A DNA stretch of 21,075 bases from positions 1 through 21,075 of the IMG/VR virus record IMGVR_UViG_3300030451_002441; one strand, given 5' to 3'. This document shows, in pieces, positions 2,489 to 18,228 of this stretch; positions within the stretch are counted from its first letter, which is position 1, and each line of letters opens with the position of its first letter. The notes beneath the pieces were generated by a model. It was not told the origin of the DNA, did not search any database, and was given only the letters and a program-made list of their open reading frames with translations. The stretch comes from a virus. Made by a program: the position numbers and the translations under genes.

Positions 2489-3193
2489 ATGGCAAAGAAA
2501 GTCAGACATAAGAAAGACCCTGCAACTAGAAAACAGTGCCGTCTAATTTCGCAACTTCAAACTGAGTTAGCAATCAAAGATGGTAAGTTGCCTGCTAATA
2601 TGAAAGCAGTTGATAAAATTCAAAATGCTAAAGATATTGAAAATGCTTTAGTAAATGCGGGTCATTTAACAAAAGGTATGGCATCGGAGGCGATTGTAAA
2701 TATGAAGAAACAATTAGAAAATAAGAAACAAGAAAAGAAAAAGAGACAGGGACCAAAGACTTTCAATAAGTGGACGAAGAAAGAGGAGAAGACTCTAACT
2801 CAACTATTTTTGGTAGAAGGATTAAGTTATTCTGAAGCCGCAAAAAAGATGGGTCGTTCACTTTCATCAGTTAAGAATAAGTGTCATTCTTTGAAGTTGT
2901 ATAAAAATGCGACTGAAGAACCTAAAACACAACAATCTCTTGATGAAAAATATGTCTTAGAACTGATTCGTTCTGAAATTAAAAAGTTCGAGAAAGAGTT
3001 CAGAAAGGACATGGAACAGCACCTCAAGGCGACACAACTTGATGATAAGAAGGACGTTGTGAAGCCATCTAAGGCTGAGGATTCTGAGAACCCAATGGTA
3101 CGCCATGAGCCTACAGAAAGCCTGTTGGAGACCCTTGATAGGCTCAAGAACCACCTTCTTCTAGACTATGTGAAGGGTGAGTTGGATGGATGA
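2489..3193 (+). CDS. Myb/SANT-like DNA-binding protein with coiled-coil tail
   Basis: The protein is very lysine-rich, fitting nucleic-acid binding. Residues about 93-138 look like a Myb/SANT or related tri-helical domain: a leading Trp (KWTKKEE), a helix ending LFLVEG, and a recognition-like helix in MGRSLSSVKNKCHSL. The N-terminal 75 residues are helical, with a pattern (ATRKQCRLISQLQ) that may be another small helical domain; the Lys/Glu-rich stretch 72-90 could be a linker. The C-terminal 90 residues are charged, with heptad-like hydrophobics consistent with a coiled coil and dimerisation. GAGGA lies 6 bases before the ATG. It sits between the E1-like and JAB genes. A viral transcription regulator or DNA-organising protein is likely; the target is unknown. 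Confidence 0.75.
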   Translation: MAKKVRHKKDPATRKQCRLISQLQTELAIKDGKLPANMKAVDKIQNAKDIENALVNAGHLTKGMASEAIVNMKKQLENKKQEKKKRQGPKTFNKWTKKEEKTLTQLFLVEGLSYSEAAKKMGRSLSSVKNKCHSLKLYKNATEEPKTQQSLDEKYVLELIRSEIKKFEKEFRKDMEQHLKATQLDDKKDVVKPSKAEDSENPMVRHEPTESLLETLDRLKNHLLLDYVKGELDG

Positions 3194-3653
3194 TGACCTA
3201 TTCGTGACCGGACCAATTATCGATTGGGATGATACTCCTTGGGATGCTCTGATTCGCCAATCGTGGGAAGGTGAAATTGACAACGATTTCTTGATGGCAA
3301 TCTGGGATACTTCAGAAAGTATTCTCGGTGGACTTGAAGTTCAAGTGGTCATTGACGCAAAGAACGATATCTACATCTCCAAGGGTACGCCATCATTCGT
3401 AGACTTTCAAACAGAACCTGTAGGTATGCGACTACCAATTGAGTGTTGGATTCACACTCATCCATTCGGTGCCGCATATTTCAGCGGAACAGATTGGCGA
3501 ACAATCAACACATGGAAACCCAATATGAAGACAGCAATTGTTCTCGGTAAGCCATACTGTCGTATGTGGGAGCGAGGATATCAGACAGAAGTCGAGAGTG
3601 GTTGGGCATATCATCCACTACACCCCTTCTTGGAAGAGAGCGTGGAAGAATGA
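3186..3653 (+). CDS. JAB/MPN (JAMM) metalloprotease
   Basis: JAMM proteases are zinc isopeptidases that remove ubiquitin-like modifiers or trim their C-termini. A full JAMM signature is present: His90-x-His92-Pro, ten residues, then Asp103, with Ser100 at the usual SxxD position (HTHPFGAAYFSGTD). The upstream general-base Glu is probably Glu51 or Glu44. At 155 residues it is a single-domain enzyme. I chose ATG 3186 over an upstream GTG at 3177 because GGGTGA at 3175-3180 is ideally spaced from 3186; the GTG lies within that site. It overlaps the previous gene by 8 bases and the next by 4. A JAB near an E1-like gene on a mobile element recalls plasmid PRTRC loci and bacterial ubiquitin-like operons. 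A peptidoglycan-hydrolase role as in phage tail JAB/NlpC proteins is less likely in an archaeal virus. Confidence 0.87.
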   Translation: MDDDLFVTGPIIDWDDTPWDALIRQSWEGEIDNDFLMAIWDTSESILGGLEVQVVIDAKNDIYISKGTPSFVDFQTEPVGMRLPIECWIHTHPFGAAYFSGTDWRTINTWKPNMKTAIVLGKPYCRMWERGYQTEVESGWAYHPLHPFLEESVEE

Positions 3654-4392: not shown

Positions 4393-4698
4393 ATGAAATA
4401 TGAAATAAATGACGGAGACGTTACGAAATTTATCAGTGAACAAAAAATCAAGGGTTTGCTGAAAGCGAGACACAACAAGCAGTTGGGAGAGGGTGCATCA
4501 GCACGTTTCTCCAAGTATAGCCGTGATATCATCAAGCACTTTGCTGACTTGGTAAATCACATGCAGAACTTGGACAACACTTCCCGTGGCCCAAGGATTC
4601 AGCCACGACACGTTGACATGGCCTTTGCCGTCTTTGCTCACCAAATTCTTGACAGTATCTATGAGGATGATTCGAATGTCGCAGATGAGACTGATTGA
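4393..4698 (+). CDS. Histone-fold-like protein A, 101 aa
   Basis: Archaeal histones are helix-loop-helix-loop-helix dimers that wrap DNA. The same layout is seen here. A short helix spans about residues 12-27. A long central helix spans about 34-60 (ASARFSKYSRDIIKHFADLV). A loop with basic RGPRIQPRH leads into a third helix, HVDMAFAVFAHQIL. RIQPRHVDMAF matches the histone loop-2/helix-3 pattern (K/R-T/I-V-x-x-x-D/H-I-x-x-A). A charged Asp/Glu tail follows. I chose ATG 4393 over ATG 4387 because GGAGG at 4381-4385 is 7 bases from 4393 and only 1 from 4387. The gene overlaps the ligase start. It might instead be a TAF-like or NF-Y-like histone-fold regulator. Confidence 0.6.
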   Translation: MKYEINDGDVTKFISEQKIKGLLKARHNKQLGEGASARFSKYSRDIIKHFADLVNHMQNLDNTSRGPRIQPRHVDMAFAVFAHQILDSIYEDDSNVADETD

Positions 4699-6211
4699 CT
4701 TCTCTCGGTTAATGGAAGCAACAGAATACAGCACTCCTACTCGGAGCATCAATGTCATCGCTAGAGGTGAACATTGTAGTGAGTTGATTCAGATTCTCTC
4801 TCTGGAACTTGAACCAAATAACGTATCACTTGCACGAGCCACGAAGTGGATTTCATCTGCGTTCGGCCTATTTCATGATGAGATTGTAGACGAGTACGAT
4901 TACCATGGAGAACTAGGTGATGCCATTTTCTTCTTCGATGAAGATTACGAAGGTGATGGCGAATCTCCTACGCTCAGAGAAACCATCTCACTCTTGGAAA
5001 TGGATTGCCGTGCAATGGATTCAGATTCCTTTCGACGCTTCAGTTCGGCCATTCGAAAGATGTCAAGTCTTGAGCGAAAGTGGTTCATTCGATATTGGAT
5101 TAGGAAACCAAGGAACTCCTTGGGAGCATCAAATGTCCAGAAGTTGCTGAAGAAGATGTATCCTGATAACTACAATGAGCAACACTTCAATTCTAACTCC
5201 AACACTTCCCTATACCAACACTACAGTTCCGGTATGGAAGTCAGAATGACACTGATGCACGGTCAATTCGTGAAGCCCATGTTGGCTAAGGTGGTTGAGC
5301 CGAAGAAATGGCCAAGTGAAGTTCATGTGGATGTCAAGTATGATGGTAACCGATACCAAATCCACAAAACAGGTTCCAACGTTTTGATTTTCAATCGACG
5401 TGGCAAAGTTGTCACCGAGAAGTTTCCCGACGTTGAACAAACGGTGTTGCGATTCCCTGTTGATGCGGTTCTAGATACTGAAATCTATCCGGTAGAAAAT
5501 GGGAGGCCCGCTCCACATCAGAGACTTGGAACTCGTATTCATTCAAAGAATGTAGAAGAAGCAATAGAGAAGGTTCCTGTTAAATTGGCAATCTTCGATA
5601 TTCTGTCGCTAGACGGTTTATATATCATTGACCGTCCACTACGAGAACGCCTACAATTGTTGCAGGATAACTTCGGAGAACATACTGCCATTTCCTACAT
5701 TATGGATGAAGTTTCACCACTTCAAGCATATCAGTTGGCAATCAATGATGGATTCGAAGGAATCATGGTGAAGGACCTAAACGATACATATCACCCCGGA
5801 AAGAGGAAGTGGATTAAGCATAAGCCTCCACAAATTGACCTAGATGTGGTTATCATTGGTGGACGATATGGTGACGGTAAGCGAAGTAATGTCTACGCTT
5901 CCTTTGACATTGCAGTGAAGTCAGAAGATGGCTTTCTGGACGTAGGTAGCATTGGGACAGGCTTTACAGATTTACAGTTCAGAACACTGACGAATCGCCT
6001 GAGGAAAATCCTAGATGGCTCCACCAGAAAAGGAAGTGAGTTGACATACCATTTCCTTCCGAGGGTTGTTCTTGAGATTACAGCAGATGCAGTAACAACC
6101 GATGATAATGGAAACATTGGTTTGAGGTTTCCACGCTGTAAAAGAATTAGGGAAGATAAACCCGTCAGTGACATTAACAATGAAGATGACATTAGGGAGT
6201 TGATTGAATGA
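4676..6211 (+). CDS. lig: ATP-dependent DNA ligase
   Basis: The enzyme seals nicks through an enzyme-AMP intermediate. Motif I is KYDGNR with Lys221 as the adenylated lysine. Motif III is seen in DAVLDTEIYP, motif IIIa in KLAIFDILSLDG, motif IV in FEGIMVK, and motif V in KWIKHKP. An OB-fold domain occupies roughly residues 400-511. The first 190 residues form the helical DNA-binding domain of archaeal/eukaryotic ligases (opening MRLIDFSRLMEATEYST), with an acidic insertion DEDYEGDGES near residue 80. At about 511 residues it is slightly shorter than the usual archaeal Lig1 (about 560). The frame is open back to 4586, but ATG 4676 has GAGGATGA upstream and fits the family N-terminus; ATG 4685 is also possible. 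No PIP box was found. Confidence 0.93.
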   Translation: MSQMRLIDFSRLMEATEYSTPTRSINVIARGEHCSELIQILSLELEPNNVSLARATKWISSAFGLFHDEIVDEYDYHGELGDAIFFFDEDYEGDGESPTLRETISLLEMDCRAMDSDSFRRFSSAIRKMSSLERKWFIRYWIRKPRNSLGASNVQKLLKKMYPDNYNEQHFNSNSNTSLYQHYSSGMEVRMTLMHGQFVKPMLAKVVEPKKWPSEVHVDVKYDGNRYQIHKTGSNVLIFNRRGKVVTEKFPDVEQTVLRFPVDAVLDTEIYPVENGRPAPHQRLGTRIHSKNVEEAIEKVPVKLAIFDILSLDGLYIIDRPLRERLQLLQDNFGEHTAISYIMDEVSPLQAYQLAINDGFEGIMVKDLNDTYHPGKRKWIKHKPPQIDLDVVIIGGRYGDGKRSNVYASFDIAVKSEDGFLDVGSIGTGFTDLQFRTLTNRLRKILDGSTRKGSELTYHFLPRVVLEITADAVTTDDNGNIGLRFPRCKRIREDKPVSDINNEDDIRELIE

Positions 6212-6684
6212 TTAAGAAAGGTGAAATGACAATTATTGATGGACAAGCATTCAGGTGCATAAAGGTTGATTCTGATGGATATGCCCACCTTAAAAATGTC
6301 ATTCATGAGCAAGGGAGACCAAAGAAGATTCATAAGTCAAAGTGCCCGTATATCGTTGACGGTAAGGTTGTAGAGCCTACTAAGGTAAAAAAGAAGAATC
6401 TTAGGGTTTCTGGGACTATTAACATAGGAACCCTTATGAGAGATTTGACCGAACGACAGGTGAGCCGTGAAGCGGTTGCGTTCATGAAAGAGTGGATTGA
6501 GACTTTTATGGTTAATATGATGACATGGGCAGACAATAATGCCGAAGAAAGAGGTGACTCAAGAATTACTGCCGCTCATATTTATTGGTATGAAATGGAC
6601 CCAAGACACGACCTATTAGGAAAAGGATACTGGCCTTCGCAAAACGAATACGTTCTAAGTCAATCTGAAGGTGTGTATCAATGA
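6208..6684 (+). CDS. Histone-fold-like protein B with N-terminal extension
   Basis: Residues about 70-130 align by eye with a complete archaeal histone fold. Helix 1 is INIGTLMRDL; a turn TERQVSREA matches the histone AERVSxxA signature; the long helix 2 is AFMKEWIETFMVNMMTWADNN; loop 2 plus helix 3 is DSRITAAHIYWYE. The first 66 residues are a separate lysine-rich, strand-like region with Cys17 and Cys46, and the last 28 residues are a Tyr/Trp-containing tail, both unusual for a histone (normally about 67 residues). The start is an ATGA overlap with the ligase stop. It is clearly different in sequence from the histone-fold-like protein on the other side of the ligase. DNA compaction or a promoter-binding role are both possible. 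Confidence 0.68.
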   Translation: MIKKGEMTIIDGQAFRCIKVDSDGYAHLKNVIHEQGRPKKIHKSKCPYIVDGKVVEPTKVKKKNLRVSGTINIGTLMRDLTERQVSREAVAFMKEWIETFMVNMMTWADNNAEERGDSRITAAHIYWYEMDPRHDLLGKGYWPSQNEYVLSQSEGVYQ

Positions 6685-11481: not shown

Positions 11482-11490
11482 GGAATGACA

Positions 11491-12258
11491 ATGAAATTTA
11501 CAATTGACAATAAAGAATTACAAACACTACTGACTGACATCCAAATCAAAGGTAAGCATCTAACTGCGACAGGATTCAAATCATCCTCTCTCGGTACAGA
11601 TGTCCATATCTCTGTGTACGATAATGTCCTAACACTTTGGAACGCTGACCAAACATTCGTTGTATGCATTCAGCACTCTGTTGAAGTGGACGAATCTGAC
11701 GAAGGAGAGTGTGTTGTTGATGCTGATACAGTGATTGCTTATCTGAAGAAGTTCAAGGGAGATATCACGTTTGAAGCAACTGACCACCTCAAACTATCTC
11801 AGGGCACAAAGCGAGCAACTGCTGGAATCGTTGTAAGTCATCAACACATGAACTCTATCAACATGGGTCGGTCAATTATTGACAACGTACCATACGAAGT
11901 AGCAATGAACAGTATCTTCGATATGTCAGAAAAGAGCAAGAACGAAGCGGCCTTCCAACTACATTCTAGTGAAGTTCAAACTGCTATCGAATGTTGCGAA
12001 GTTGTGGGTAGTGGTGTCTACAATATTTCCTTTGATGGAGAGAGTGTCAACTTCTCTTCTCGTGATGGAGTCAAATCCTACGAGCAAGAAATGAATGTCA
12101 TTCAGAAAGTCGGTGAACCTGCGGGTGCCGCTATCACGGGCGCATTTCATCGATTCCTTGAGAGCGATGTAATGTGCAACTTCTACATGACAGATGACCG
12201 ACCGGTTATGGTAAGGATGCCAAATCGGTTCATGCTCAAAGCACCGAGGCTTGATTAG
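11491..12258 (+). CDS. pcn: Sliding clamp (PCNA-like)
   Basis: The length of 255 residues fits a two-domain PCNA subunit that would trimerise around DNA and tether PolB and nucleases. It opens MKFTIDNKELQTLLTDI, and alternating strands follow (VHISVYDNVLTLWN, VCIQHSVEV). The second domain starts near residue 135 with helix and strand patterns such as AFQLHSSEVQTAIECC and YNISFDGESVNFSSRDG. The end, FYMTDDRPVMVRM, matches the PCNA C-terminal phrase before the last strand. ATG 11491 is chosen because GAGGA lies 6 bases upstream and would abut ATG 11485. Sequence identity to cellular PCNA looks low; I judged by fold pattern, length and gene context. Confidence 0.82.
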   Translation: MKFTIDNKELQTLLTDIQIKGKHLTATGFKSSSLGTDVHISVYDNVLTLWNADQTFVVCIQHSVEVDESDEGECVVDADTVIAYLKKFKGDITFEATDHLKLSQGTKRATAGIVVSHQHMNSINMGRSIIDNVPYEVAMNSIFDMSEKSKNEAAFQLHSSEVQTAIECCEVVGSGVYNISFDGESVNFSSRDGVKSYEQEMNVIQKVGEPAGAAITGAFHRFLESDVMCNFYMTDDRPVMVRMPNRFMLKAPRLD

Positions 12259-14357: not shown

Positions 14358-15263
14358 ATGAAAGTAGTTTATGGACACACAGATTCAATTTACGTTCAAA
14401 TTGATTCAGTAGAAAAGGCGCAAGAGGTATTGGGTGAACTAAATGAACACGTCAGAAAAATATTCCCGAATGTTCTTGGACTTGAATCACATCCTGTGGT
14501 TCTTGAATTTGAGAAGTATTTTCTCTCCCTTGGTGTGGGCACGACAAAAAATCGTAACGCTGGTCTCATCGCTTGGGAAGACGGCGTTTGGTTGGATGAA
14601 CCCAAATTCACGATGACGGGATTCACTGCGAAGAGGATTTCAGAAACGAAGTTGGCATCTCAGTTCCAGATGTCCGTTCTTAGAAAATGGGCACAAGGAT
14701 ACACCAAATCCGAGATGGACGAATTCTGTGCTAAGGAGTATTCCGATACTCTGGAAGGAAAGAAGGAGTTCGACCTTATCGTAAAACGTTCTAGAATGCG
14801 TGAAGACCGATTCAAGGTCCGATGCCCGAACTGTGGAAGCAAGTACCATCTCTTCGAAATCGACTTCGATAAGTGCCAAGGGGAAGATAACGTGGGAGAA
14901 CCATGTCTACTACGACCACGATTCTTCAGGACTCTGGAAGGTAAGATGCCATCTATTGGTTCTGGTATTGCCGGAGTCGTTTATGGATGGGAGCAGAACT
15001 TCGACTTCGATGATTCGTACCTTTACATCAAGGTGAATCCTGACCCAAAAAATCGATTCACACACCCTCTCATGAGAGAGAAGAGAACGGTAGAATTCGT
15101 TTCTGCCCCTACCAAGGAAGTCTTGGAAAACTACGAACCAAATTGGTTCTTCTATGCCCAGTCTCTCGTAAAGAAGGCTGAACCCATTTACCGAGCAATG
15201 GGTTGGGACATGTCGGCAGTAACTCGGGATAGAAAGCAAACTACACTGGATGAGTGGTTCTAA
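14358..15263 (+). CDS. polB: Family B DNA polymerase, C-terminal fragment (motif C, thumb, PIP box)
   Basis: This 301-residue half begins at polymerase motif C: YGHTDS at residues 5-10, where the usual form is YGDTDS, so the first Asp is His7 and the catalytic Asp9 remains. The rest is palm and thumb, with KxRxE-like TGFTAKRISET near residue 90. A four-cysteine site (Cys156-x2-Cys159, Cys173-x9-Cys183) is inserted in the thumb region. The last eight residues, QTTLDEWF, are a canonical PCNA-interacting peptide. It joins the N-terminal fragment without missing sequence. GGTGA at 14347-14351 lies 6 bases before the start. A split between motifs B and C is known for PolB of Methanothermobacter. 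Confidence 0.94.
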   Translation: MKVVYGHTDSIYVQIDSVEKAQEVLGELNEHVRKIFPNVLGLESHPVVLEFEKYFLSLGVGTTKNRNAGLIAWEDGVWLDEPKFTMTGFTAKRISETKLASQFQMSVLRKWAQGYTKSEMDEFCAKEYSDTLEGKKEFDLIVKRSRMREDRFKVRCPNCGSKYHLFEIDFDKCQGEDNVGEPCLLRPRFFRTLEGKMPSIGSGIAGVVYGWEQNFDFDDSYLYIKVNPDPKNRFTHPLMREKRTVEFVSAPTKEVLENYEPNWFFYAQSLVKKAEPIYRAMGWDMSAVTRDRKQTTLDEWF

Positions 15264-16129: not shown

Positions 16130-16491
16130 TTGACAAATTAGTAAAGCAAAAAGTTCTGTCGAGGTCTTGGTCTTTTTCAGATATTTCGAATTTAGTAAAT
16201 ACTGTAAAACTACTATCTCAAGAAATCTATATGGAATTGAAACTGACCGAAAGATTTGAACTCGTTCGTGAAGTTAGAATTAATGAAAACTTAGTCGGTA
16301 CTCATTTTGATGAAGCACTCAAAGAAATGGTAACGACTGTATTACAACTGAAAGTTGGAGAAGTTTTCAAAGAAATGTTAAATGGTGCAACAATTAATTT
16401 TGGTGGTGAAAATGAAATTTCCGAGGGAAGTCTGGGCCGGGAGTCATCTGACGACAAAGGGACAGATGAAAAGAAGAATAGTAAGAAGTAA
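16126..16491 (+). CDS. Unknown helical protein, 121 aa
   Basis: I recognise no family. Residues 1-85 are predicted mostly helical with regular hydrophobics (ISNLVNTVKLLSQEI, HFDEALKEMVTTVLQL), and the last 30 are a low-complexity Gly/Ser/Asp/Lys tail. The base composition is more AT-rich than the flanking nuclease gene. The start overlaps the nuclease stop (ATGA) with AGGAGG 10 bases upstream. The last 80 bases overlap the primase gene in another frame, which may explain the low-complexity tail. It could be a partner of the primase, by position only. Confidence 0.68.
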   Translation: MIDKLVKQKVLSRSWSFSDISNLVNTVKLLSQEIYMELKLTERFELVREVRINENLVGTHFDEALKEMVTTVLQLKVGEVFKEMLNGATINFGGENEISEGSLGRESSDDKGTDEKKNSKK

Positions 16492-17488
16492 GACCTCTTA
16501 CGTCTCTTTCATCAAAAACCAGAATAATAAGACGAACGTATATACGAATGTTTATGATTATACTGAATTTAATGAAAAGTCAAAGATTGATTCTTCTGTA
16601 GTTTTAGATAGAATTTTTCTAGACTTTGATAGTCACAATGAACCGATGCAAAACTCATTCGATGATTTCAAAACAGTTCTAGGATGGGCTATCGAAAATG
16701 ATTATGAAAGAACAATGTTCTTCTCTGGGAATGGGTTTCATATGTTTCTCTTTGGTGAGGTAACTGATGATATTCGTGACATTCAGTATTTCCAGAAAGA
16801 AGTCGTTGAATTTCTAGAGAGTAACATTTCTAGGAAGTCAACTCTTGACGAGAGGGTTTGTCAGCCTACTCGATTGAGGAGAGTTCCCAACACTGTTAAC
16901 ATGAAAACAGAGAACTTCCTCTACTGTATCCCTTTGCTGGATAGTGACCTCGACTCCTCACTAGAAGAGATTCTAGAGATGGCCCGAAAACCACGCCATA
17001 TTCCGAGGGAGTTGGCCGGGAAAACGAAGGTCTCTTGGCCGCATGCCCCCGATTTGATGGAAGTGGAAGGCGAGGTATCAGTCCCAAAAGCAGTGGGAAA
17101 CCTGCCCATGTTGCCCTGCTTGCACAATGCCATCATGGTAGAGAATCCAGCCCACGAAGCCAGATACTATCTGGTCCAGTGGTTCCGTGATTTACTAACT
17201 GGGCGAACAAATATTCTATCTCGTAGCGAACAAGAAAAGATTCTAGACGCTATTGTTGATGAAATTGAACATATCGTGACGAATACAGATGAGATTTGGC
17301 TCGATTGGAACCGTGAAAAAACGAAACAACATTCTTCTTTCTCGGTATATAAAAACATGAAAACTCCCGGTTGTCTCACACAACTGATACCAAAAGGATA
17401 TTGTATCGGAAAGTGTTGGAGATACCCGGACTTCGTAGGAGGAAAACAAAATGGAGGAAAAGAAAATGAGACAGACAACGTTAATTGA
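16412..17488 (+). CDS. Archaeo-eukaryotic primase fused to a PriL-type Fe-S domain
   Basis: The N-terminal part is a PriS-like AEP catalytic domain: metal-binding D71-x-D73 (IFLDFDS), motif II SGNGFH with His110, and motif III QPTRLRRVPN with Arg154. From about residue 225 the sequence changes to a helical domain with four spaced cysteines: Cys236 in LPCLHNA, Cys321 in PGCLTQL, and Cys331 and Cys335 in GYCIGKC. This is the order seen in the 4Fe-4S C-terminal domain of the primase large subunit, including the helix ARYYLVQWF. The whole is 358 residues. Single-chain PriS-PriL fusions occur in Nanoarchaeum and in the pTN2 plasmid primase. ATG 16412 follows GGTGGTGA; ATG 16466 is an alternative. 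It would lay primers for PolB. Confidence 0.88.
   Translation: MKFPREVWAGSHLTTKGQMKRRIVRSKTSYVSFIKNQNNKTNVYTNVYDYTEFNEKSKIDSSVVLDRIFLDFDSHNEPMQNSFDDFKTVLGWAIENDYERTMFFSGNGFHMFLFGEVTDDIRDIQYFQKEVVEFLESNISRKSTLDERVCQPTRLRRVPNTVNMKTENFLYCIPLLDSDLDSSLEEILEMARKPRHIPRELAGKTKVSWPHAPDLMEVEGEVSVPKAVGNLPMLPCLHNAIMVENPAHEARYYLVQWFRDLLTGRTNILSRSEQEKILDAIVDEIEHIVTNTDEIWLDWNREKTKQHSSFSVYKNMKTPGCLTQLIPKGYCIGKCWRYPDFVGGKQNGGKENETDNVN
17437..17442 (+). promoter_or_regulatory. Shine-Dalgarno site of the tandem-PIP microprotein
   Basis: AGGAGG lies 8 bases before ATG 17451, within the primase gene but not serving it. A second GGAGG at 17453-17457 lies 8 bases before ATG 17466, so either in-frame start is well served. 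Confidence 0.72.
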
Positions 17489-17552
17489 ATTTGGATTGAA
17501 AGTAAATCGACAAATGACACTTATTGAGTTTGGTCTAGATGTTGACAATTGA
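17451..17552 (+). CDS. Tandem PCNA-interacting-peptide microprotein, 33 aa
   Basis: This frame overlaps the end of the primase gene and the first codons of the ERCC4 nuclease gene. After MEEKKM it consists of two 13-residue repeats, RQTTLIEFGLKVN and RQMTLIEFGLDVD. Each holds a PIP-like core Q-x-T-L-I-E-F (Q8 to F14, Q21 to F27), compared with the canonical QxxLxxFF and with QTTLDEWF at the end of this virus's own polymerase. Ten of 13 positions are identical between repeats, and eight of those ten use different codons, as expected if the peptide sequence is selected. A perfect AGGAGG precedes the start. It probably binds the sliding clamp with two sites, bridging subunits or competing with other clients; the role is inferred. 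Confidence 0.7.
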   Translation: MEEKKMRQTTLIEFGLKVNRQMTLIEFGLDVDN

Positions 17553-18228
17553 TAGCCGAGAGAATTCTGCTCTATCCATTGAGGTAGAAAAGAAGGCTAA
17601 GGCTTTGAATATTGCTACAAAGAAAGAGTTTATCGAAGTCGGAGACTACGTGTTTTCTGACGTATGCTTTGAAGCAAAATCAGTTGTAGACTTTTTAGGC
17701 TCAGTAATGTCAAAGAGGTTATGGACTCAAATCGATAATATGGATAGGTACTACCAAACAAATGTAGTAATTATTCATGGCGATTTGGATGAAGGTATTC
17801 AGATGGTTAAGGACCATGTGGTATCTAAGATGCCAGAACCTGCCCGTAGTATCACACTTAGGAACAAATTTCTAGGTGCTATTGGGCGAATTACGTTGGA
17901 CACAGACGCCAAGGCTTTCTGGGTCCCTTCTCATCGTGAGGCGGCATTGATTATCACCGCCATTTGTAAGATGAGACCACTAGATAGGCCAACTATCAAG
18001 CCCACTCTTGCTAAGAGGATTTCATCCGATGATGTTCGAGCAGATATGCTTGCCACCATCAAGGGCGTATCCCACGCAAAAGCGGAAGCACTGTTGGAGA
18101 GTTTTGGTTCAATCATGGAAATTGGGGAGCACAAGGCTTACAATCTCTCCAGAGTCAACGGTATTGGGGAGACCGTAGCAAAAAGAATCCTCGACGCACT
18201 TAGCAATGAAGACAAGGTGAGAATATGA
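17539..18228 (+). CDS. XPF/Mus81-type ERCC4 nuclease with helix-hairpin-helix domain
   Basis: These structure-specific endonucleases cut branched DNA such as flaps and forks. The catalytic domain fills residues 1-135: D5-S-R-E8, G35-D36, then E45-A-K47 and D51. The family motif is GDxxxxxxxxxERKxxxD; here Ala46 replaces the Arg, while the metal ligands and Lys are kept. Residues about 165-225 are a double helix-hairpin-helix with IKGVSHAKAEALL and VNGIGETVAKRIL. At 229 residues it is the nuclease-plus-HhH form without a helicase. Archaeal XPF usually has a C-terminal PIP box; none is seen here, but the tandem-PIP peptide is encoded immediately upstream and overlaps its start by 14 bases. The next gene starts in an ATGA overlap. 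Confidence 0.93.
   Translation: MLTIDSRENSALSIEVEKKAKALNIATKKEFIEVGDYVFSDVCFEAKSVVDFLGSVMSKRLWTQIDNMDRYYQTNVVIIHGDLDEGIQMVKDHVVSKMPEPARSITLRNKFLGAIGRITLDTDAKAFWVPSHREAALIITAICKMRPLDRPTIKPTLAKRISSDDVRADMLATIKGVSHAKAEALLESFGSIMEIGEHKAYNLSRVNGIGETVAKRILDALSNEDKVRI

Follow-up and report, generated by a model that had tools for sequence, protein, structure and literature searches.

TIP, the Thermococcales inhibitor of PCNA, is a 64-aa protein with a putative N-terminal PIP and a C-terminal partial PH-like domain (PMC4929162). An earlier note on the DNA analysed here had described TIP as a plasmid and virus protein, but its source places it in Thermococcales species, where it occurs (PMC4929162). 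Among archaeal viruses, a split PolB and a full replisome have been described for the Magrovirales (PMC10768690). We analysed a 21,075-nt stretch of an IMG/VR virus record (the window; positions 1 to 21,075 of IMGVR_UViG_3300030451_002441), which carries an ATP-dependent ligase, RFC-like clamp loader genes, a sliding clamp, a two-gene family B DNA polymerase, a PD-(D/E)XK nuclease, a primase and an ERCC4 nuclease. These genes mark the window as the replication module of an archaeal tailed virus resembling magroviruses, and by gene content alone it is of Magrovirales type (PolB split into NTD and CTD, PCNA, RFC, primase and ligase). At its primase/ERCC4 junction lies a microgene for a putative clamp-binding peptide (Table 1). 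Elsewhere in the window, ThiF/E1-like and weak Prok-JAB matches stand one gene apart (1931-2479 and 3177-3653), a pair that suggests a viral ubiquitin-like activation or removal module, and the protein encoded at 6208-6684 weakly matches archaeal histone folds over its second half (PF00808/PF00125, scores under the cut-off).

Table 1. Coordinates in the window of the microgene, its parts, its neighbours and the viral clamp and polymerase genes
Feature	Position	Strand	Basis
Conserved two-PIP microprotein gene, probable 28-aa product (stop included)	17466..17552	+	Gap-free alignment of relatives begins here; purifying selection in this frame only
Alternative upstream start of the microgene	17451	+	Gives 33 aa
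AGGAGG Shine-Dalgarno for the 17451 start	17437..17442	+	Sequence
GGAGG Shine-Dalgarno for the 17466 start	17453..17457	+	Sequence; GGAGG/GAGGTG-type sites also upstream of starts in relatives
PIP-like motif 1, QTTLIEFGL	17472..17498	+	Q, L and F/Y invariant in 20/20 lineage-1 sequences
PIP-like motif 2, QMTLIEFGL	17511..17537	+	Q, L and F/Y invariant in 20/20 lineage-1 sequences
Archaeo-eukaryotic-type primase; upstream neighbour, overlaps the microgene	16382..17488	+	phrog_16345 primase, E 1.5e-10
ERCC4-type nuclease; downstream neighbour, 14-nt overlap with the microgene	17539..18228	+	PF02732, E 1e-13
Viral sliding clamp, likely binding partner	11485..12258	+	phrog_947 processivity factor, E 2e-5; ATG also at 11491
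C-terminal part of family B DNA polymerase, ends in canonical PIP QTTLDEWF	14358..15263	+	PF00136; C-terminus

The frame at 17451-17552 (+) translates as MEEKKMRQTTLIEFGLKVNRQMTLIEFGLDVDN, followed by a stop, and the 28-aa product from its second ATG (17466) is MRQTTLIEFGLKVNRQMTLIEFGLDVDN. Each ATG has a Shine-Dalgarno sequence 8 nt ahead of it: the perfect AGGAGG pointed out in the earlier note (17437-17442) precedes ATG 17451, and GGAGG (17453-17457) precedes ATG 17466. Relatives align from 17466, which has its own GGAGG, and the conserved product therefore probably starts at the second ATG and has 28 aa, not 33; the 33-residue frame proposed earlier is a genuine gene, but probably a shorter one. 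Its two repeats are RQTTLIEFGLKVN and RQMTLIEFGLDVD, with motif 2 lying 13 residues downstream of motif 1. Reading the codons directly from the sequence bore out the observation that 8 of the 10 identical repeat residues use different codons. The window contains a single match to the two-motif DNA pattern, and none of 100 dinucleotide shuffles contains one. Both motifs have the PIP-box core (Q, a hydrophobic residue at +3 and an aromatic residue at +6) in all 20 sequences of lineage 1, the lineage of the window. The second aromatic residue of the PIP box was not found at +7, where motif 1 has Gly throughout the 20 lineage-1 sequences and motif 2 mostly has G, D or Y, and we therefore class the motifs as PIP-like.

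Searching IMG/VR with a degenerate DNA pattern and by scans of gene neighbours yielded 38 different tandem relatives. All 38 microproteins consist of two Q-x-x-[LI]-x-x-[FYW] motifs and little else, spaced by 13, 15 or 19 residues, and most members are 27-48 aa long; the core in relatives is Q-x-x-L-x-x-[F/Y/W], in two copies 13-19 residues apart. Scanning with the ERCC4 nuclease gave 80 viral loci, approximately 12 of which have a 28-aa ORF at the same place (for example, MKQLTLDDFGLIMEGQTKLSDFDASNRQ). These ORFs are only 32-36% identical to the window peptide, and all motif core positions are kept (invariant residues: Q3, T5, L6, F9, G10, L11, Q16, L19 and F22). The degenerate pattern for the two motifs matched in 17 contigs, the ERCC4 of a distant member (L083) used as query led to more members (for example, MRQTTLFEFGLRIEGQTTLEDFGLVFEE, MKEGRQMTLYEFGLKMKGQTSLLDYGLKLDEEE and MQKTLFEYGLVLEGQMTLLDFGLELED), and a relaxed pattern matched 28 contigs, every one with this microprotein. 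In 257 Gb of bacterial and archaeal genomes, the relaxed pattern had 8 matches; each fell in a bacterial record and in a frame of another kind, and they look like chance. The 28-aa alignment gave no tblastn-confirmed relatives, the protein being too short as a query, and degenerate DNA patterns were used instead. Annotated phage records yielded no microprotein and, for ERCC4, only a distant Methanobacteriales virus, and PHROG gave no significant match for the window peptide or the L083 member. The microprotein is present at 19 of 89 non-redundant ERCC4 loci, a patchy distribution that marks an accessory gene. In the ERCC4 tree of these 89 rows, the 19 carriers cluster and imply approximately 4 gains or losses; some branches are long, which leaves the placing unsure.

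A search of related genomes for a short frame between primase and ERCC4, as the earlier note had proposed, thus found a conserved frame with dN/dS below 1. Over the 20 codons shared by the lineage-1 sequences, dN/dS was 0.115 in clade A, 0.32 in clade B and 0.36 overall. Measured against randomised substitutions, amino-acid changes were depleted in clade A (7 observed, 11.6 expected; P = 0.012), in clade B (23 observed, 31.3 expected; P = 0.002) and in the motif core (3 observed, 14.4 expected; P = 0.0002), and the same randomisation gave no depletion in the other two frames. The frame is therefore under purifying selection as a protein-coding gene, with the shifted frames as controls. Among the 20 lineage-1 sequences, Q1, L4, Q14 and L17 are invariant, and F and Y are the only residues at positions 7 and 20; loss of the Q, L or F positions, which the earlier note had named as a sign against its proposal, was not seen beyond this F/Y exchange. 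Clade B microgenes do not overlap ERCC4, so their conservation is not borrowed from it. As an ORF conserved under purifying selection in many related marine archaeal viruses, 17451-17552 is far beyond chance. On this comparative sequence evidence it is a real gene, conserved and selected for its peptide, and the earlier proposal of a two-motif microprotein under peptide-level selection holds.

In magrovirus-like replication operons, the gene lies either at the primase/ERCC4 junction or directly after DNA polymerase B, within the operon in both contexts. Start-stop coupling to the primase is often seen at the junction. One or two extra small genes separate primase and microgene in L003, L005 and L022, two extra genes lie between microgene and ERCC4 in L100 and one does in L195, and the frame offset between microgene and ERCC4 differs between clades. 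The microgene is thus an independent cistron, because its frame relation to ERCC4 varies by clade and genes are inserted on either side. Two derivations from the neighbours were ruled out: a primase C-terminus read in another frame, by the one or two intervening genes in L003, L005 and L022, and a programmed frameshift fusing the PIPs to ERCC4, by the clade-dependent offset and by the kilobases between the two in lineage 2. The nuclease at 17539..18228 gave no PIP of its own in a motif scan, in agreement with the earlier note, but the specific recruitment of ERCC4 that the note suggested is not supported, given the intervening genes in L100 and L195 and the place of the microgene in lineage 2, directly behind polymerase B and 3.3 kb from ERCC4. 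Seven other viruses (L004, L006, L024, L027, L054, L130 and L150) carry a different, membrane-segment-like short ORF (MERSDLMFYARIGFYLTGTIAFILAS...) upstream of ERCC4, which makes the primase/ERCC4 junction a microgene hot spot.

The position after the polymerase is seen in L202 and L204 (relaxed pattern), where a product beginning MTKTRQTKLTEYGMTFEGQTKLTEFGMTFEADIKRN is encoded directly behind an undivided polymerase B, 3.3 kb from ERCC4. Scanning with this type of polymerase gave 80 loci, with polymerase tails that are PKSYF/PATYW-like and not a canonical PIP. Beside the polymerase stands a tandem-PIP microprotein at 23 of the 80 loci and a single-PIP one at 4, examples being MNNERQTTLDEWGMTMDNTRQTTLDEWGMTLE... 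and MEEKKKYRQTTLHEFMPEATRQTTLEEFL. The lineage-2 microprotein motifs QTTLDEWG and QTTLEEWG equal the lineage-1 polymerase PIPs QTTLDEWF and QTTLEEWF except in the last residue, and some members (L236 and L237) have a basic helix-like tail and an acidic end. The two contexts, compared here by very short sequences, may share one ancestor or have arisen twice. The polymerases B of L229-L308 form a whole lineage with a conserved proline-aromatic tail (PKSYF, PATYW or PKTYGWW) in place of a PIP, which may be an unrecognised clamp-binding tail. A separate family of approximately 80 aa, with a zinc-ribbon-like CxxC, a conserved RKYRG tail and one or two PIP-like motifs (RQSTLGEFG, RQTTLDEW), is encoded ahead of polymerase B, or right behind it, in viruses without the tandem microprotein (L242, L243, L246, L247, L248 and L260).

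The AlphaFold2 model of the clamp (11485-12258; pLDDT 86) matches sliding clamps, A. fulgidus PCNA among them (1rwz, E = 1.2e-12), and as modelled the sliding-clamp fold is confirmed. The elements around P238 and A251-P252 are invariant in the clamp alignment, and we take them, from the PCNA family, to be the PIP pocket. Homologues of the window clamp were found in 14 of 14 lineage-1 records tested, lineage-2 viruses have a different clamp (13 of 13 records tested), and a clamp gene was present in the window and in each of the 16 other microprotein-bearing virus records checked; PF00705 recognised none of the clamps in the virus records above cut-off. The clamp is equally common in relatives without the microprotein, so this co-occurrence does not prove the target. 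The C-terminal polymerase gene of the window ends DRKQTTLDEWF, as the earlier note had read it, and lineage-1 polymerases whose ends are visible finish Q-x-x-[LF]-[DEG]-[DE]-W-[FW], by sequence a textbook C-terminal PIP. The strict motif occurs in three genome samples of approximately 80 kb only at the polymerase end, in the microprotein and in one 81-aa protein, and in the window additionally near the ligase N-terminus. There, at 4668-4702 (ORF 4586-6211), a possible PIP-like QMRLIDF lies near the likely N-terminus (MSQMRLIDFSRLM) of the ATP-dependent DNA ligase and resembles the microprotein motif more closely than the polymerase PIP. The L083 virus also encodes a protein of approximately 80 aa (L220:16537-16777, -) with a single canonical-looking PIP, TTQSSLDDF, a possible clamp binder.

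The microprotein is a well-supported candidate clamp binder and probably controls what binds to the clamp. Our preferred reading, to which we assign a probability of approximately 0.5, is that it is a stand-alone clamp-binding microprotein that would occupy the pockets of the viral clamp, competing with or relaying clients. The whole product, two PIP boxes and a short linker, would be expressed alongside the replisome, from the operon for viral replication; each motif would dock in a client pocket on a sliding clamp, most likely that of the virus, and the free peptide would fill pockets and compete with or relay polymerase B, ligase and nucleases. We favour the viral clamp because the gene keeps to the replisome operon, with frequent start-stop coupling, and because its motifs copy the polymerase PIP in viruses whose polymerase has none. 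Against this, lineage-1 motifs end F/Y-G and polymerase PIPs end W-F/W-W, so that the affinity of lineage-1 peptides for the viral clamp may be low, or their target different. Between the aromatic residue of motif 1 and the Q of motif 2, the linker has approximately 7 residues and spans at most approximately 25 Å, whereas neighbouring pockets on the PCNA ring of approximately 80 Å are an estimated 50 Å apart by general PCNA geometry. This mismatch makes binding of two pockets within one ring unlikely and tells against the earlier idea of bridging two subunits; instead, the two motifs might add avidity through rebinding or cross-link two rings. Under the preferred reading, the tandem copy would raise effective affinity through rebinding and not by spanning two subunits.

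The main rival is a host-directed PCNA inhibitor, possible but on balance unlikely. It would saturate the PIP pockets on the clamp of the archaeal host, shutting off host replication or PIP-dependent repair or defence nucleases, while viral replication ran on the virus's own clamp. Magrovirales are considered to depend little on the host replisome (PMC10768690), phage shut-off proteins that target DnaN exist (Twort gp168 and G1 gp240; PMC3594737), and the microgene is patchy and accessory. The lineage-1 aromatic residue, always F/Y against W-F/W-W in the polymerase, is also what would be expected if the viral clamp must be spared. Host targeting fits poorly with a gene kept within the replisome operon, often start-stop coupled to the primase, and with lineage-2 motifs that match the viral polymerase PIP (QTTLDEW) in a gene that follows a PIP-less polymerase. 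It is decidedly unlikely that the microprotein is a clamp tether or adaptor in trans, with one motif on the clamp and the other motif or the tail on a second clamp or a replisome protein, such as a PIP-less polymerase B whose covalent PIP it would replace. The tandem (23/80) and single-PIP (4/80) microproteins near lineage-2 polymerases with PKSYF/PATYW-type C-termini point this way, as do the basic helix-like tail and acidic end in L236 and L237. However, window-lineage polymerases have their own PIP and need no substitute, two thirds of the PIP-less polymerases are without such a neighbour and their C-tails may bind the clamp otherwise, and many members have no tail for docking.

A conserved microprotein that is no clamp ligand and uses Q-x-x-L-x-x-F for another partner is very unlikely. 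Position 8 is usually Gly and not the second aromatic residue of a canonical PIP, and clamp binding is predicted from sequence; yet in the sampled genomes the strict motif occurs almost nowhere but in the polymerase PIP and the microprotein, and lineage-2 motifs share 7 of 8 residues with canonical polymerase PIPs. The chance that the ORF is an accident of the junction of two genes is negligible. Its very small size speaks for such an origin, as does its overlap with both neighbours in the window, but the comparative data refute it: there are 38 distinct relatives, purifying selection acts in no frame but this one, the clade B genes are free of overlap, the position in lineage 2 is independent, and the 257 Gb of cellular genomes gave only 8 chance-like hits, of other frame kinds.

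These results show that a complete, selected viral protein can be just two copies of a short linear motif. The microproteins add a gene family, of 27-48 codons in most members, to the repertoire of viruses related to the abundant surface-ocean magroviruses; gene calling usually stops at 90 nt, and the family lies in part below this limit. They are also predicted to be a natural minimal ligand for archaeal sliding clamps, testable with synthetic peptides. If the target is the viral clamp, the microprotein would be a new kind of replisome regulator, and if it is host PCNA, an archaeal counterpart of the phage clamp shut-off proteins. As a tentative and rather doubtful extension, PIP-only viral microproteins might form a widespread class of detachable clamp ligands that take over or modulate the clamp tethering of replicative polymerases in trans and replace the polymerase PIP in cases of its loss, with the gene moving within the operon.

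Among known systems, TIP is similar as a small protein of archaea that has a putative PIP, binds PCNA and prevents client interactions in vitro (PMC4929162), but it has one putative PIP and a PH-like part, whereas the microprotein is two PIPs with no domain, viral and encoded in a replication operon. At 28 aa, with two motifs and no domain, it departs from the TIP family (approximately 64 aa, a PH-like domain and one PIP), and no kinship between the two is detectable. Canonical archaeal PIP boxes (for example, the consensus peptide KTTQSTLDSFFK, A. fulgidus PCNA, 1RXM; PMC4929162) have the same Q-x-x-hydrophobic-x-x-aromatic core, but the microprotein usually has Gly for the second aromatic residue, then a hydrophobic residue, and its motif is the whole protein and not the tail of an enzyme. 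Twort gp168 and G1 gp240, which target DnaN (PMC3594737), are likewise small viral proteins that act on a sliding clamp, but that clamp is bacterial, the proteins are unrelated and the microprotein viruses carry their own clamp. The polyomavirus agnoprotein, also small and viral, carries a PIP-like sequence and inhibits PCNA-dependent synthesis; it differs in being larger and multifunctional, with a membrane-type segment and one PIP-like motif (PMC5217368). Human Pol eta has several PIPs in one polypeptide, three in all, but they are appendages of an enzyme and not the whole product (PMC4652755). The open-access literature searched, mainly titles and abstracts, describes no viral protein of tandem PIPs only. 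TIP is the nearest functional analogue, with a different architecture; small PCNA binders are already known, and the two-PIP-only viral form is a variant of them.
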